Virus record (IMG/VR): IMGVR_UViG_3300020204_000455
Coordinates: 1 to 20,963 of that record
Length of the DNA: 20,963 nt
DNA from: a virus
Direction: 5' to 3' (one strand)
Made by a program: the position numbers and the translations under genes. The notes below the pieces were generated by a model. That model was not told the DNA's origin, did not search any database, and saw only the letters and a program-made list of their open reading frames with translations. The stretch's first letter is position 1, and the number at the start of each line of letters is the position of its first letter. Below, in pieces: positions 11,502-20,963 of the stretch.

Positions 11502-12413
11502 CTATCCCTCAAATTCCTGCTCAGATTGCTCTACGGCATTGTCAAATGCTGTTAACGTAGATTCTTTGGCGACACCAAGATCAACAAACATAGAATAAGT
11601 TACGCTATCTGGGTCATTGTATTCGTCTGTTAGACCTATAACATCGGAAGATGCCGTTAAATTATTAGAAGCCTCATTAAAATTATTTGTATCTATTTCA
11701 ACAATGTCATTCATAACATTTGCTTGATTATTTAGTAGTTCATTAATATCCGTTACAATAGTTGCTATCGCAGTCTGCCCAGATATTGTTCCGGAATCTA
11801 ATCTTAAAATCTGATCCATTTTAGACTGAACGCTTATGTTTAGTTTATCTTTAATTGTGTTAAGAGTGTCGCCTGATTTAAGAGCGCCTGCGGTATTAGC
11901 AAGAAACCCTTTGGTAGTGTCAGAGCCCAATCCATTTAACATCTCACCGACATTCTGTAGTTTCTTAAAATCTGGTACGGCATCATTTATCGCAGAGGAT
12001 AAGCCAGAAAGATTAGATGTATGAGCCTGAAGATCGCCTAGTTTTGTCGTAACTTGAGATATGGCGTTTGTTATATTAGATAACTGACCACCAGTAAGTT
12101 TACCTGTAATGTCACCCAATTTACCACTTACACCACTCACAGCACTTCCAATGGCGGATTGCGCCAATCCAACAGGATTTTGGACTAATGAGGCAATAGA
12201 CCCAGCTTCTTGAACAACAGATGCAATTTTTCCAAGCGCACCACCAAGAGCTCCTGCACCACCCGTTCTAATTGCTACAGGCAATCCACCAACTGTGACC
12301 GTCTTTATTTGCTGCAGATTAGTTCCACCGTTCGTTTTAATGTCATTGATTTTATCTAAAAGTTTAGCCTCGATTTTAGCAATAATTTTTGCTTTTGCTT
12401 CTGTTAATGCCAT
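11502..12413 (-). CDS. Unrecognised Ala/Gly-rich protein between gp5 and gp25
   Basis: I do not recognise this 303-residue protein. It opens with a charged helix (residues 1-25, rich in Ala, Lys and Glu). A GGLPVAIRTGGAGALGGALGKI stretch follows at about 42-63, then a long Ala/Gly/Ser/Leu-rich amphipathic region (about 60-190) that resembles tape-measure or tail-tip chaperone segments. The C-terminus is acidic and Asn-rich (about 220-303). The ATG overlaps the gp5 stop by one base and has a GGGGG ribosome-binding site, so it is co-translated with the spike gene. Because it lies among hub and wedge genes it is probably a hub- or spike-associated structural or assembly protein. The gp5 C-terminal extension has a similar GKIAGGITSTISG stretch. 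No PAAR-type tip motif is visible. The role is inferred from context only. Confidence 0.85.
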   Translation of the reverse strand: MALTEAKAKIIAKIEAKLLDKINDIKTNGGTNLQQIKTVTVGGLPVAIRTGGAGALGGALGKIASVVQEAGSIASLVQNPVGLAQSAIGSAVSGVSGKLGDITGKLTGGQLSNITNAISQVTTKLGDLQAHTSNLSGLSSAINDAVPDFKKLQNVGEMLNGLGSDTTKGFLANTAGALKSGDTLNTIKDKLNISVQSKMDQILRLDSGTISGQTAIATIVTDINELLNNQANVMNDIVEIDTNNFNEASNNLTASSDVIGLTDEYNDPDSVTYSMFVDLGVAKESTLTAFDNAVEQSEQEFEG

Positions 12414-14131
12414 TATGACTGACCCCCATTAATAGACTTTAATATATCAAGCACTTCTTGGTTTTGTTCAGCTTCATCAGTTTGAGCCTCAAATCGCTCA
12501 AAAACTTCTGGGTTCGCAGCATATGATGGAACATTGTCGATCTGAATAGTTTCCGTTTTAGGATAAGTGTGTTTAGCGATCACATTTGTTAGTTGATTTT
12601 GTGCAATGTTATAAACTGTTGTCAAAATTTCATTTTGAATTGTACGGTCAAACTTAAATTCCACATTGTTATTAAACGCCAGCTGGGAAACTTGATCTAT
12701 CCTATTCAAAAGGAACTGCTTAGGATCTCTCGCTAATGAGATAATATCAGCTACATTATTATTAATAGCGATACCAAACCCATCAACTTTACCTGCCAAT
12801 TCTCCTATTGGCAGTTTGTTAGCAAAATCTTTAATGATACCATCAGCGGCAGCGCCAAGAGATTGAGCCACACCACTGATGGTTGATGTGATACCGCCAG
12901 CAATTTTTCCGAGAACTGATTGACCCTTTGGAACTTCAACTTTCTTAGATGTAACTTTAACTTCCTGCAATGAATCAGCGCCAGCTGAAACAGAATTTGC
13001 TTTCGCAGCTGGGTTTGCTGCCAGTGCAGCTGCATCACTTGCGGATTCTTGTACATCTTCTGATGATGGTGTTGATCCACCACCCTTCAATCCAGTGCCA
13101 GAAGCTGATTTCACTGATCCGCTTTGGATATTTACCTTTCCAGCTGGGATATCAACCGTAGCACCACCAAGACCAGCTGTGGCACCCTTCAAATCTAGTC
13201 GCCCACCAGCTGTAAATTTACCACCGCCGCCAGCTTTGAGGTCCATTCCACCTGTTGATTCAATTTTAACCGAGCTGCCTTTGATTTTAACGGCACCATC
13301 AGCTGCCATGTTAATCTCAGATGCTTCAATGTTAATTGTTTTTGTTTTAAGATTAAAATTACCATCAACTGTAATTGCAGCTTTGCCTTTGATGTAAATA
13401 AAGTCATCGCCCATAATCACAGAATAATTATCTTTCTGAACTCTCTGAATTTTAGAGCCATCTTTATCATATTCCATGTATGCACCCTTACGATGAGCCA
13501 AATGTACGCGCTCATTACCAGGTGTATCATCAAATTCTAGTGCATGCCCCGATTCAGATTCAAGAGCATTGTTGTATGGGTATTTTGGTTTAAAAGATGG
13601 CGCAGGTTCGCTCCAATTAACACCACCAGCAGACTTTACATTCTTTTTTAGATTTTTCTTTCGAGTTGCTATAATTGTACTATCAACTTTACCGCGAGAT
13701 AATCTGTTGAGCGTTGGTTCTTTTAAATATTTACTCTTTGGATACTTGTCAGAATCATCATCTGGTTTTTTAGGACGACCAGAAAGCGTATTTCCTGGAT
13801 CAGAGAATCCTCTTTCATACTTTGGTTTTTCTTCGGGTTTGCCTGGGAAAATTCCAAGAATAGCAGGATTCTGAGCATTCGTTCCATCGACAAAAAATCC
13901 AAAAACCATGTCTCCTTCTTTCGGTGTATACACATTAGGAGCATTAATTGGTAAAATTGGATGTGCCCATGGTAATGAATCAGTCGGAATTAATGATTTG
14001 TCATCTGAGTGAAATCCAAAACAACGAACACGGACGCGACCAAGTTGTTCTGGATCCTGGCGATCTTCAACAACGCCGATCCACCATATAAATCCTTCTA
14101 ATCCTATAAAATTTTTAATTGCACCAGGCAT
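12413..14131 (-). CDS. gp5: Baseplate central spike gp5-like, lacking the lysozyme domain
   Basis: This protein forms the trimeric membrane-piercing spike under the hub. Residues about 12-96 are the OB-fold: WWIGVVEDRQDPEQLGRVRVR, then PWAHPILP, KEGDMVFGFF and NPAILGIFPG. In T4 a lysozyme domain follows. Here residues 100-185 are a Lys/Pro-rich linker with no lysozyme-like sequence. Residues about 186-243 (SGHALEFDDTPGNERVHLAHR, MEYDKDG) lead into a repeated beta-helix (about 244-345) of alternating hydrophobic residues, Gly and Asp, the VgrG/gp5 needle. Unusually, about 225 further residues follow: an Ala/Ser-rich stretch (350-390), a Gly/Ala-rich helical segment (400-450) and a C-terminal domain (450-572). 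The ATG overlaps the gp27 stop by one base and has an AAGGG site. The total of 572 residues is close to the T4 length (575), but with different parts. Confidence 0.92.
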   Translation of the reverse strand: MPGAIKNFIGLEGFIWWIGVVEDRQDPEQLGRVRVRCFGFHSDDKSLIPTDSLPWAHPILPINAPNVYTPKEGDMVFGFFVDGTNAQNPAILGIFPGKPEEKPKYERGFSDPGNTLSGRPKKPDDDSDKYPKSKYLKEPTLNRLSRGKVDSTIIATRKKNLKKNVKSAGGVNWSEPAPSFKPKYPYNNALESESGHALEFDDTPGNERVHLAHRKGAYMEYDKDGSKIQRVQKDNYSVIMGDDFIYIKGKAAITVDGNFNLKTKTINIEASEINMAADGAVKIKGSSVKIESTGGMDLKAGGGGKFTAGGRLDLKGATAGLGGATVDIPAGKVNIQSGSVKSASGTGLKGGGSTPSSEDVQESASDAAALAANPAAKANSVSAGADSLQEVKVTSKKVEVPKGQSVLGKIAGGITSTISGVAQSLGAAADGIIKDFANKLPIGELAGKVDGFGIAINNNVADIISLARDPKQFLLNRIDQVSQLAFNNNVEFKFDRTIQNEILTTVYNIAQNQLTNVIAKHTYPKTETIQIDNVPSYAANPEVFERFEAQTDEAEQNQEVLDILKSINGGQS

Positions 14132-17307: not shown

Positions 17308-17742
17308 ATGGCTTATAATGGTAAATTTAGTCCTAAAAATACCAATAAATATTTAGGTGATCCAACAAACATCTGGTACAGATCGTTATGGGAACGCCGA
17401 GTAATGGTGCACCTAGATGGCAATCCGAATGTAATTGGTTGGTCGAATGAGGAAATAGTTATACCATATTTATCCCCAGTTGATGGAAAATGGCATCGTT
17501 ACTTTCCAGACTTTTTTGTAAGAATACGAAATAAAACTGGATTAACCGAGTCTATGATTCTTGAAGTAAAACCTAAAAGTCAGTCTGTTCCGCCCAAAAT
17601 TCAAAAGAAAGTTACCAAACGATATATTCGAGAAGTTACAACATATGGTATTAACGAAGCAAAATGGAAGGCAGCTGATGAGTATTGCAAAGATCGTAGA
17701 TGGAAGTTTATGATTATAACTGAGGAAGAACTAGGAATCTAA
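17308..17742 (+). CDS. gp4: Head completion protein gp4 (PD-(D/E)XK, TnsA-like)
   Basis: Gp4 acts on DNA-filled heads so that tails can join. The N-terminus MAYNGKFSPKN matches the T4 gp4 start as I recall it, which fixes the ATG even though no Shine-Dalgarno site precedes it. The 144 residues compare with 150 in T4. The nuclease-like motif is intact: Pro67-Asp68 in RYFPDFF, then Glu86-Val-Lys88 in ILEVKPK. This fits the TnsA-like endonuclease fold assigned to the family. WYRSLWERR (22-30), NEAKWKAADEY (115-126) and KFMIITEEEL (132-142) are also conserved. The stop overlaps the next start by one base (TAATG). Confidence 0.93.
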   Translation: MAYNGKFSPKNTNKYLGDPTNIWYRSLWERRVMVHLDGNPNVIGWSNEEIVIPYLSPVDGKWHRYFPDFFVRIRNKTGLTESMILEVKPKSQSVPPKIQKKVTKRYIREVTTYGINEAKWKAADEYCKDRRWKFMIITEEELGI

Positions 17743-18290
17743 TGCCATCGCTATTTGATAAATTCAATAAACAGATGAATGCCGCTGGCATTCGACCAAG
17801 AACAGATACAGCCAGATCTTGGTTGTTAGATAAAATTTCTAAAACGCGCATTCCGACAAATCGTAGTAATATTCTAAATGATCCAAATCGTATTTCATCT
17901 AATGTGTTTATAGGAAGAATGTTCATATACAAATATGATCCGAAATACAAGGATACCTTGCCAGTCTGGGATATGTATCCGTTAGTTATACCAATGGATA
18001 TCTATTCAGATGGTTTTTCAGGATTAAATTTACACTATCTTGATCCATATAATCGTTTGGCTCTGCTTGACAGACTACATGATTTCATAAACAACGATAA
18101 ATATAACAATACCACAAGATTTAATTTGGCTTATAGTTTATTATCTAAATCGCGAAGATACAAACTTATTGAACCTTGTGTTAAGCGATATCTGTTTTCT
18201 CATATTATGTCTTCGATTATCTATATTGAACCCGATAACTGGGAGACTGCAATCTTCCTACCTGTACAAAAAATGGTGTATAAGACCTAA
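17742..18290 (+). CDS. Conserved phage protein of unknown function downstream of gp4
   Basis: This gene encodes 182 residues with an AGGA site five bases before the ATG, overlapping the gp4 stop by one base. The distinctive blocks are WDMYPLVIPMDIY followed by SGLNLHYLDPYNRLALLDRL (about 76-112), then EPCVKRYLFSHI (144-155) and PDNWETAIFLPVQKM (164-178). These look like a conserved family seen near gp4 in marine T4-like phages, but I cannot name it with confidence. A relation to the T4 DNA-end-protector gp2, which neighbours gp4 functionally, is possible and untested. No catalytic motif, signal peptide or membrane segment is seen. It is co-translated with gp4 and the gp54-like gene, so a role in head completion or tail assembly is the likeliest reading. 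Confidence 0.88.
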   Translation: MPSLFDKFNKQMNAAGIRPRTDTARSWLLDKISKTRIPTNRSNILNDPNRISSNVFIGRMFIYKYDPKYKDTLPVWDMYPLVIPMDIYSDGFSGLNLHYLDPYNRLALLDRLHDFINNDKYNNTTRFNLAYSLLSKSRRYKLIEPCVKRYLFSHIMSSIIYIEPDNWETAIFLPVQKMVYKT

Positions 18291-19015
18291 TGTTTAAACC
18301 AGATGACTTTTTAAGTAATTTTGCAAAACACAAAGACTTTGCAAAGGTTTCTAAATTTCATGTTGAAATCTCGAAGCCATCTGGTTTTGTAGCAAGTGAT
18401 GTTGATTTTAAAGAACTGAGATTTCAATGTGAAGCTGCAGAACTTCCAGGATACAATATCAACACAGTAGATGCTAAGATATATGGTGTTCCTGCACCTG
18501 CAGCTTCTTTCGCCTCATTTAATGATGTTACGCTTACCTTCATATGTGCAGGCGATTTATGGGAAAAGAAACTATTTGATTACTGGATGAATCTAATAGT
18601 ACCAATTAATAGATATGAATTGCGTTATAAAAACGAATATGTTGCTAAAATTAATGTCACACAGTTTTATGAGACTGGTGAACCATCATACATTGTTTCT
18701 TTGTGGAACGCATTTCCAATAACATTATCTCCACTCACACTAAATTGGGGTGATGATGGTATTCATAAACTGTCAGTCACCTTTAAGTATGACTATTGGT
18801 CAACAAATAATACTGAAAAATTTGGATTGAATCAACAAACCGCCGCTGGAGCACCAACTAAACCTGCTACGCCAGCGCAACCCACAAACCCACAAGGTGC
18901 TGGTGGAAATTCATTTAAACCTGGAAGTGGTAGTCGAACATCTGGAATTAAACCAATAACATCACCACCATTGCTTGGTCTATTTGCTGCAGGTTTAAGA
19001 CCTGGTGGAAGATAA
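18290..19015 (+). CDS. gp54: Baseplate tail-tube initiator gp54-like (gp19 tube fold)
   Basis: This protein probably starts tail-tube polymerisation on the gp48 ring. The N-terminus (MFKPDDFLSNFAKHKDFAKVSKFHV) resembles the T4 gp54 opening as I recall it. Residues 47-170 have the tube-protein pattern: CEAAELPGYNINTV, then FNDVTLTFICAGDLWEKKLFDYWM, and finally LTLNWGDDGIHKLSVTFKYDYW. T4 gp54 has 320 residues; this one has 241. Residues about 183-241 are a Pro/Gly/Ala/Thr-rich low-complexity tail not expected in a tube ring. It could instead be a divergent gp19-type tube protein. However, a tube gene normally sits with the sheath gene, and none is here. The start overlaps the previous stop. Confidence 0.7.
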   Translation: MFKPDDFLSNFAKHKDFAKVSKFHVEISKPSGFVASDVDFKELRFQCEAAELPGYNINTVDAKIYGVPAPAASFASFNDVTLTFICAGDLWEKKLFDYWMNLIVPINRYELRYKNEYVAKINVTQFYETGEPSYIVSLWNAFPITLSPLTLNWGDDGIHKLSVTFKYDYWSTNNTEKFGLNQQTAAGAPTKPATPAQPTNPQGAGGNSFKPGSGSRTSGIKPITSPPLLGLFAAGLRPGGR

Positions 19016-19034: not shown

Positions 19035-19751
19035 ATGCCTTTGCCAAAACTTGATCATCCTGTGTTTGAAGTTCAATTAAATTCTATTGATCGTAAATTA
19101 AAGTTTCGTCCATTCTTAGTGAAAGAAGAAAAACTTCTTCTAATGGCTAAAGAATCTGATGATTTGAATGATGTGTTCAAAACTATGAAACAGATTATTC
19201 AAAATTGCTGTATGGAAGAGATTGACGTTGAATCTCTTCCAGTATTCGACATAGAAATGATTTTTATTAATTTAAGAATTAATTCAGTCGGCGAAAATGT
19301 GCAAATGAATTTTACTTGCGACAATGTCGTCGAAGGAAATACATGCGGACATATTACCGAATTTGATTTACATTTAAAGAACATTAAGTATCAGATTCCA
19401 GAGGATCATGATAAAAATGTAAGACTAACAGATAAAGTTGGTGTTGTATTTAAATATCCAACTCTACAGTTACCACCAGAAGTTTTAAATGAAACTGATG
19501 ATGGTGGATTTGAATTAATTGTAAATTATGTTGATTATATTTACGATGACGATGATTTGTATAAAGCAGATGAAACGCCTAAAGAAGAATTAAGAGACTT
19601 TTTTGAATCTTTAACTTTAGATCAAATACGAAAAGTAAAATTATTCTTTTTGACGACACCAACTGTTGTGCTTGACCAAGATATACAATGTGCAAAATGT
19701 GGCTATAATCATCATGTTAATGTGGAGGGCATTCTAAATTTTTTCGAGTAA
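19035..19751 (+). CDS. gp26: Baseplate hub assembly protein gp26-like
   Basis: This is the T4 gp26 family (T4 baseplate protein), involved in hub assembly. It has 238 residues, against 208 in T4. N-terminal LKFRPFLVKEEKLLLMAKES (residues 22-41) is the family hallmark, followed by FDIEMIFINLRINSVGE (71-87). Four cysteines in two pairs, Cys95/Cys104 and Cys219/Cys222 (CAKCGYNHH), suggest a zinc-binding ribbon. A GGAG site lies before the ATG, 19 bases after the gp54-like stop. The stop overlaps the next start by one base. Its last codons (AAT TTT TTC GAG TAA) contain a slippery heptamer, and part of the product may be extended by -1 frameshifting into the downstream frame. Confidence 0.86.
   Translation: MPLPKLDHPVFEVQLNSIDRKLKFRPFLVKEEKLLLMAKESDDLNDVFKTMKQIIQNCCMEEIDVESLPVFDIEMIFINLRINSVGENVQMNFTCDNVVEGNTCGHITEFDLHLKNIKYQIPEDHDKNVRLTDKVGVVFKYPTLQLPPEVLNETDDGGFELIVNYVDYIYDDDDLYKADETPKEELRDFFESLTLDQIRKVKLFFLTTPTVVLDQDIQCAKCGYNHHVNVEGILNFFE
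19724..19745 (+). promoter_or_regulatory. Candidate -1 programmed frameshift signal (SD-like GGAGGG plus T_TTT_TTC)
   Basis: A canonical slippery heptamer T_TTT_TTC occupies 19739-19745 in the gp26 reading frame, two codons before its stop. An internal SD-like GGAGGG lies at 19724-19729, leaving nine bases before the heptamer, close to the spacing that promotes -1 slippage in E. coli dnaX. After the slip the frame reads CGA GTA ATG and continues as the 64-residue downstream protein, giving a predicted 303-residue fusion. The GGAGGG is 21 bases from the downstream ATG, too far for a normal ribosome-binding site. No clear downstream hairpin was seen. The functional call is inference from these elements. 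Confidence 0.6.
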
Positions 19752-19945
19752 TGTTTGGTTATGAGTCTTTGAAAAATTATTTTGAAACAAATTTTACGCT
19801 AATGCATCATCACAAGTATTCATTGACTGAATTGGATAATTTAATACCATGGGAAAAACGGATTTACGTTTCTATGTTAGTTTCGTTCATCAAAGAACAA
19901 AATGAACAGATGAAACTGGCAATGTTACAGAGAAGAAGGTCATAA
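19751..19945 (+). CDS. gp51: 64-residue baseplate hub/tail assembly helper in the gp51 position
   Basis: In T4 gene 26 is followed by gene 51, the hub assembly catalyst. This gene has that place but only 64 codons, much shorter than my recollection of T4 gp51. The protein is helical, with HHHKYSLTELDNLIPWEKRIY at about 19-39 and a Gln/Met/Arg-rich end. I recall similar short proteins after gp26 in other marine T4-like phages. It can be reached in two ways. One is the ATG overlapping the gp26 stop (TAATG), with no well-placed ribosome-binding site. The other is a -1 frameshift from gp26 at 19739-19745, which would add Arg-Val plus all 64 residues. The second would make it the T part of a G/GT-like chaperone pair. 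The gp51 symbol is positional. Confidence 0.72.
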   Translation: MFGYESLKNYFETNFTLMHHHKYSLTELDNLIPWEKRIYVSMLVSFIKEQNEQMKLAMLQRRRS

Positions 19946-19948
19946 TAA

Positions 19949-20963
19949 ATGGCAACAATGAAAGTCAGCGGAAGAGTTTCTAAGGCAAAAAAGAAACTTG
20001 AAGTTGGTCTAACAGAATTAGAAAGGGCAATTAAATCGGAAACAAAAGGTGTTACCGATCCACAAGAAGCCAAAAAACGCGAAGCTGAGGTTCGTGATCT
20101 ATTTTACACAGCCAGAAAAAAGACAAAAGGACTACAATCTGGTTTGTTGATGGGTATTTTTAGCGATGAAGTTGGTCAGGCATTGGCGAATATTTTTGCT
20201 AAAGAAGATCCTTCAAAAGTTGAGTCTGCTGAAAAATTTTTAAAGAAATTTCAAAATAAATCGAAAGATAAGAGCTCGTTAAAGACTAAACAAATTAAAG
20301 ATATAAGCAATTTGGTTGGCAGAAAAAGAATGCCAATACAACCTTCTGAGATTTCAACACCCAAATCAGAACAAATCTCTCTAAAGAAAGGTTACTATTT
20401 TGATGAGCGAATTGGTGCAATGGGTGGAATTCGTAATGTTCGCACTGGTCGATTTGCATCAGAAGATGAAGCAACAAAGAGAAAAGAAAGAAGCGATCGC
20501 TTGACAAAAGCCATTGGTGCAGATGAAGATCCATTAACACTCTTACGCGAAAAAATAGTTGAAATAGTTGGCGAAGATAATACTGGAAAAACAGTTCATG
20601 AAAAACTTGATGAATTGCTTGATCAAATTGAGGGAGGCGGCGGTGGTTTTGGATTTGGATTAGGCGATCTACTTGGATTAGGCGGCGGTCTTCTTGGGAG
20701 ACGTGGACCAAAAACAAAGACGCCGACCAGAAAATTGACAACTAAAGGTCCAACAACTAAAGACACATCTTCAAAAAAATTAGCAAGAACATTAGCGGCA
20801 AACAGAAGTCGTTTTGGTGTAGATCAACCACGTGATGCGAAAGGAAGATTTGCCAAAAGTGGTGAATTTGGCGCAGGAAAGCTGCTAGCAGGTGGATTGG
20901 GTGCAGCAGCTGGTGGTTACTTGGCTTACAAGGCAGTTGATGCATTTAGAGATAAGGATATTA
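19949..20963 (+). CDS. Probable tail tape-measure / hub protein, N-terminal part
   Basis: The ATG at 19949 opens 338 codons without a stop up to the right edge, so the gene continues outside. An AAGG site lies nine bases upstream, inside the end of the 64-residue gene; an alternative ATG is at 19958. The first 120 residues are Lys-rich and helical, partly heptad-like. Residues about 228-250 are a Gly/Leu/Phe-rich hydrophobic stretch. Two GRFA motifs (VRTGRFAS about 164-171, AKGRFAKSG about 297-305) flank a basic Thr/Lys-rich linker. Residues about 309-332 are a Gly/Ala-rich membrane-like helix. This composition, and its place directly after a possible chaperone pair, fit a tape-measure protein (the gp29 role in T4). 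No direct sequence match to gp29 was recognised; a large hub protein with a distal enzymatic domain is the alternative. Confidence 0.65.
   Translation, partial: MATMKVSGRVSKAKKKLEVGLTELERAIKSETKGVTDPQEAKKREAEVRDLFYTARKKTKGLQSGLLMGIFSDEVGQALANIFAKEDPSKVESAEKFLKKFQNKSKDKSSLKTKQIKDISNLVGRKRMPIQPSEISTPKSEQISLKKGYYFDERIGAMGGIRNVRTGRFASEDEATKRKERSDRLTKAIGADEDPLTLLREKIVEIVGEDNTGKTVHEKLDELLDQIEGGGGGFGFGLGDLLGLGGGLLGRRGPKTKTPTRKLTTKGPTTKDTSSKKLARTLAANRSRFGVDQPRDAKGRFAKSGEFGAGKLLAGGLGAAAGGYLAYKAVDAFRDKDI

Follow-up and report, generated by a model that had tools for sequence, protein, structure and literature searches.

A probable -1 ribosomal frameshift at the end of gp26 that would yield short and long tail assembly chaperones in T4-like phages

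We analyzed a 20,963-nucleotide stretch of viral DNA (IMG/VR virus record IMGVR_UViG_3300020204_000455, positions 1 to 20,963; the whole stretch is hereafter called the window) and found that its gp26-like gene very probably ends in a -1 frameshift site, from which a single gene would yield both a short and a long tail assembly chaperone; we put the probability of this reading at roughly nine in ten. The proposal of a sequence-only reading of this DNA, a G/GT-type -1 frameshift where gp26 meets gp51, is strongly supported by comparative evidence, which consists of the heptamer, the -1 domain, the synonymous conservation and the split between phages with one gene and those with two. That ribosomes slip here in vivo, how often they do so and that the products act as chaperones are inferred.

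The gp26/gp51 junction in the window

The genes are arranged in the order of tail tube, gp26 with the -1 domain and an ORF of 1040 amino acids with an endolysin-type domain (Table 1). The PF12322 profile covers residues 11-238 of gp26, which is the whole domain, and among the phage records found, none has a gp26 with more than 39% identity to this one. By direct reading, the 3' end of the gp26 ORF (19035-19751) is CTA AAT TTT TTC GAG TAA, and the layout described in the sequence-only reading was borne out: the heptamer T_TTT_TTC is in the gp26 frame with GGAGGG nine bases 5' of it, the gp26 stop is the second codon past the heptamer, the -1 frame is open and enters the small ORF in phase, and a large ORF begins three bases past the stop of the small gene. 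After the slip, the -1 reading is (TTT TTT) CGA GTA ATG, in phase with an ORF of 64 amino acids (19751-19945), and the post-slip frame comprises 66 codons, resulting in a predicted fusion of 303 amino acids. Over its C-terminal part, the 64-amino-acid ORF matches PHROG 634 (gp51, "baseplate hub assembly catalyst") at 3.1e-24, and it also weakly matches the end of PHROG 150, beyond gp26, which is a first hint of natural fusions.

Table 1. Features at and around the gp26/gp51 junction, in positions of the window
Feature	Position	Strand	Evidence or remark
Tail tube protein (gp19-like), directly 5' of gp26	18290..19015	+	PHROG 45 tail tube 1.3e-37; PF23849
gp26-like gene, short chaperone form (TAC-N), 238 aa	19035..19751	+	PF12322 T4_baseplate 6.4e-60; PHROG 150 4.2e-64
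GGAGGG, putative internal Shine-Dalgarno-like element	19724..19729	+	9 nt 5' of heptamer; direct reading
Putative slippery heptamer T_TTT_TTC	19739..19745	+	gp26 frame; direct reading and conservation in relatives
-1 frame C-terminal domain (TAC-C, gp51-like)	19745..19945	+	PHROG 634; homology unbroken to slip site in relatives
Zero-frame TAA stop of gp26	19749..19751	+	Overlaps ATG 19751-19753 as TAATG
ATG giving separate 64-aa ORF	19751..19753	+	Mostly non-Met column in relatives
Start of 1040-aa ORF, probable tape-measure-like protein	19949..20963	+	Runs off the window; complete in longer contigs (L002/L003)

The bare string TTTTTTC occurred 11 times in the window versus 14.1 times expected by shuffling and, hence, is not rare in this AT-rich DNA. 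Among all 6,970 codons in the genes of the window, however, there was a single in-frame T_TTT_TTC, and any one gene has a chance of about 0.006 of carrying an in-frame T_TTT_TT[C/T/A] within its final five codons. Three IMG/VR contigs share the junction, each matching over 5,929 bases with 0 mismatches, so that an assembly error at this position is unlikely.

In the mechanism that we propose, most ribosomes would end gp26 at the TAA and produce the 238-amino-acid short chaperone, while a minority would pause with TTT in the P site and TTC in the A site, aided by pairing of 16S rRNA with GGAGGG, located 9 nt 5' of the heptamer. Both Phe-tRNAs would then re-pair with TTT TTT, one base further back, and the ribosome would go on through CGA GTA ATG to 19945, resulting in the 303-amino-acid gp26-gp51 fusion. 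The short and long forms would represent TAC-N and TAC-NC, like lambda gpG and gpGT, and serve as chaperones for the tape-measure-like protein encoded next.

The AlphaFold model of gp26 was confident (pLDDT 89), and that of the C-terminal domain was helical (pLDDT 82). A Foldseek comparison of the gp26 model with BFVD, a set of predicted viral structures, mainly retrieved other phage gp26/gp51-type and baseplate proteins. The comparison with the PDB gave no significant match, the HK97 tail assembly chaperone (2OB9) appearing only at E = 2.8, which proves nothing; the model of the 64-amino-acid C-terminal domain likewise had no significant match in BFVD, and a profile search of solved structures gave no match. 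As for the protein encoded next, the ORF from 19949, at full length in the longer contigs (L002 4915-8037), carries a GH19 chitinase/endolysin-type domain at residues of about 686-892, and its equivalent in S-RIM32 partially matches a tape-measure PHROG (4.8e-12); the ORF probably encodes a tape-measure-like protein. For the gp5-like hub protein of the window (12413-14131), Pfam gives an OB domain only, with no lysozyme, and the hub may have ceded its wall-cutting activity to the tape measure. A separate observation concerns the head closure protein (gp4-like, 17308-17742), which has a TnsA-like endonuclease domain (PF08722, 3.3e-22).

Conservation of the predicted slip site and the two-gene arrangement of T4-type phages

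The junction was compared among reference phages and 80 viral contigs, which provided 86 usable loci, and the relatives were grouped into 55 clusters at 60% identity or 33 clusters at 50%. An in-frame T_TTT_TT[C/T/A] closes gp26 in all 86 loci, 0-3 codons before the stop, and in all 86 the -1 frame opens directly into the conserved C-terminal domain. The first Phe codon was TTT in 55 of 55 clusters, and the codon before the slip was T-ending in every one of the 55, though its amino acid varies among Ser, Asn, Asp and Ala. Relative to the codon usage of the same genes, the log10 P was about -19 for the 55 clusters and -11 for the 33 clusters at 50%, these and the other P values for clusters being indications only, because they assume independence and the clusters are partly related. 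The second Phe codon was TTC in 39 of 54 clusters versus a background of 26% (P = 2e-12, likewise an indication), FF pairs elsewhere in gp26 were encoded as T_TTT_TTC in only 4 of 69 cases, and synonymous conservation was highest at the two heptamer codons (z of 8.0 and 6.8), except for a column near the gene start. Such a junction reaches as far as Aeromonas CC2 and Ah1, Vibrio PC-Liy1 and D486, Citrobacter Ci1, Stenotrophomonas Yut2 and Xanthomonas X1. Judged against codon usage, the conservation of the heptamer is far beyond chance. In these T4-like phages, the heptamer and the SD-like element are conserved beyond amino-acid constraint, the -1 frame is open, and the slippery site is present with the small gene in register, as the sequence-only reading would predict.

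The heptamer is absent from the T4-type phages T4, teqdroes, WFbE185, Konradin and vB_Ecl_id4496, in which the slip position reads TTC TTT, TTT GTT or TTC TTC. The number of PF12322 genes was one in 11 of 11 complete genomes with the heptamer, among which no second gp26-family gene was found, versus two in 5 of 5 T4-type genomes without it. In T4-type gp51, residues 6-200 align with gp26 and residues 207-244 with TAC-C, which suggests that T4 encodes by two genes what the phage of the window appears to make from one. T4 gp26 corresponds to the short form and T4 gp51, composed of a gp26-like domain and TAC-C, to the long form, whereas the T4 system differs in having two genes on opposite strands and no heptamer. 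The record of Konradin labels both gp26 and gp51 as tape measure protein assembly chaperones. The earlier suggestion that the T4-like gp26/gp51 pair may be the equivalent of G/GT is supported for the phages with the heptamer. T4 itself does not use a frameshift, the two genes being separate there and gp51 being in itself the long form. On the predicted proteins, the short and long forms share their N-terminal domain, by frameshift here and by separate genes in the T4 type, making a clear contrast of two routes to the same two proteins, one frameshifted gene versus two genes in T4.

Candidate stimulators and competing explanations

Upstream of the slip, the codon usage of the relatives was shifted toward G-ending codons: Glu five codons 5' of the slip was encoded by GAG in 24 of 38 cases versus a background of 21% (P = 2e-8), and G-ending Leu codons were also enriched. 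The pairing with the anti-SD sequence had a mean of -6.5 kcal/mol versus -4.8 kcal/mol in synonymous shuffles (t = -6.3), with its peak 7-9 nt 5' of the slip, and the duplex in the window was strong (-9.8 kcal/mol). These comparisons indicate that the putative upstream SD stimulator is selected beyond amino-acid constraint in the relatives. On the 3' side, the structure predicted for 3-63 nt past the slip had a mean z of -1.44 in the relatives, with z below -2 in 34%, versus +0.1 to -0.7 in control windows, save an overlapping one at +10, so that the structure peaked exactly past the site. No such hairpin was found in the window (z of 0.2); like an upstream SD, a downstream structure is frequent at -1 frameshift sites of the X_XXY_YYZ type without being required.

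The 3' stem-loop was also considered as a universal part of the signal and was rejected, since it is missing in the window and its correlation with SD strength is nil (Spearman 0.03). Distinct perfect or near-perfect hairpins, differing by lineage, lie directly 3' of the heptamer in seven loci (L084, L094, L010, L078, L098, L064 and L088); for example, GATCCATATGGATC in L084 and GGTCCATATGGACC in L094 represent a paired change.

A free 64-amino-acid gp51 could also be produced without any fusion, if ribosomes stopped at the TAA and restarted at the ATG that overlaps it as TAATG. The overlap does exist in the window, giving the small ORF its own ATG, and the annotations of S-PM2, S-RIM32 and P-SSM4 list gp51 as a gene of its own; thus, reinitiation at TAATG may occur in the phage of the window. 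As the explanation of the junction, however, it is improbable. In most relatives, the column of the window's ATG holds Ser, Thr, Ala, Gly or Ile, 42 of 53 clusters (about 80%) have no ATG within four codons of the slip, leaving only about 11 with one near the junction, and the first ATG mostly falls within the conserved domain. There is no ATG near the start of the homologous region in CC2, Ah1 or Ci1, and in CC2 and Ah1 the -1 domain is intact but unannotated, located in an apparent intergenic gap (L013 3199-3363 and L104 2242-2407). Furthermore, the gap of 21 nt between GGAGGG and the ATG is too large for ordinary initiation, and reinitiation leaves unexplained why TTT and a T-ending preceding codon are each found in 55 of 55 clusters. 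The alignments point to the fusion, not the ATG of the separate ORF, as the conserved feature.

Two further explanations are, in our estimation, highly improbable. The frames could be fused at the level of mRNA by slippage of the RNA polymerase on the T run, which would generate mixed transcripts and for which a run of six to eight T speaks; however, six T are short for transcriptional slippage, TTC, which breaks the run, is strongly favored over TTT at the second Phe, and neither the SD-like element nor the 3' hairpins would have a role. It could also be a coincidence, with FF retained for reasons of the protein and gp26 and gp51 being ordinary neighboring genes, in line with the retention of FF (or FV) by the T4-type gp26, which has no frameshift. 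The T4-type codons given above indicate that the protein sequence allows codons other than TTT TTC here, and the peak of synonymous conservation exactly at the two heptamer codons also argues against this possibility, which is as remote as transcriptional slippage.

Known systems and other junctions

The sequence-only reading regarded frameshifting as a feature not described for T4 gp26/51, which is not the case: as far as the passages of two articles that cite it indicate (PMC10885494 and PMC12846349), it was already proposed in print in 2022. The work of Vladimirov, Gautam and Davidson (2022, Virology 566:9-15) is cited in PMC10885494 for T4-like phages in which a short gene accompanies a fused long one, and in PMC12846349 for TAC-N genes of T4-like phages with poly-T slip sites. 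As represented in those citations, the T4-like chaperones are the same gene pair with short and C-terminally extended forms, and the present case differs only in that the phage of the window is uncultured and its gp26 distant from the phage records found. The published proposal gains independent and quantified confirmation from the present comparison. Frameshifting is reportedly conserved in several T4-like groups according to that proposal, with the T4 group said to use genes 26 and 51. Possible additions to it are the quantified selection on the SD-like element, the 3' hairpins that differ among lineages and, in Ackermannviridae, the junction with its non-canonical slip.

To our knowledge, lambda gpG/gpGT and gp26/gp51 have no sequence homology. 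Lambda gpG/gpGT (PMC5009743) resembles the system in its position before the tape-measure gene (a probable one in the window), a -1 shift close to where the short form ends and the C-terminal extension, and the window differs in having the heptamer T_TTT_TTC and the putative upstream SD-like stimulator. The dnaX cassette of Escherichia coli (PMC5009743) is similar with respect to the internal SD about 10 nt 5' of a homopolymer-type heptamer and to the 3' stem-loop, also present in many relatives of the window phage; in contrast, the product in the window would be extended, not truncated, and the window is without a 3' stem-loop.

The gp51 of cyanophages is only about 20% as long as that of non-cyanophages (Sullivan et al, 2010; PMC3037559). 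A frameshift would account for this unusual shortness, the "small gp51" of cyanophages being most likely just the C-terminal half of what the slip produces. For these marine phages, a group of great abundance, the annotation of gp51 would be corrected accordingly, and in some genomes, such as Aeromonas CC2 and Ah1, this half has been missed entirely.

At about even odds in our judgment, T4-like phages set the ratio of gp26 to gp26-51 by a dnaX-type cassette composed of an internal SD under selection that goes beyond the encoded protein, a T_TTT_TTC slip and, in certain lineages, 3' hairpins that turn over rapidly, while the -1 fusion is retained in Ackermannviridae and some Vibrio phages via a different, non-canonical slip (around ATT TTC AT[T/C] TAA in Ackermannviridae). 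In Ackermannviridae and close relatives (L016, L100-L102 and L111-L127), gp26 ends as ATT TTC AT[T/C] TAA T[T/G]T TTG, and the canonical heptamer is absent, but a conserved domain similar to gp51 lies in the -1 frame and is unannotated in S118 and STML-13-1. Several phages of this group have a -1 frame stop just 5' of the junction, so that any slip would be confined to about nine bases. Vibrio K475 and K448 (L018 3200-3300 and L099 2650-2760) have the same layout, with a -1 domain and no canonical heptamer; CTT TT[T/C] precedes the stop, which an ATG overlaps as TAATG, and the only options for them are a P-site T_TT[T/C] slip or reinitiation. A single PF12322 gene was present in the genomes of this type that were searched (S118, Dickeya XF4 and K475).
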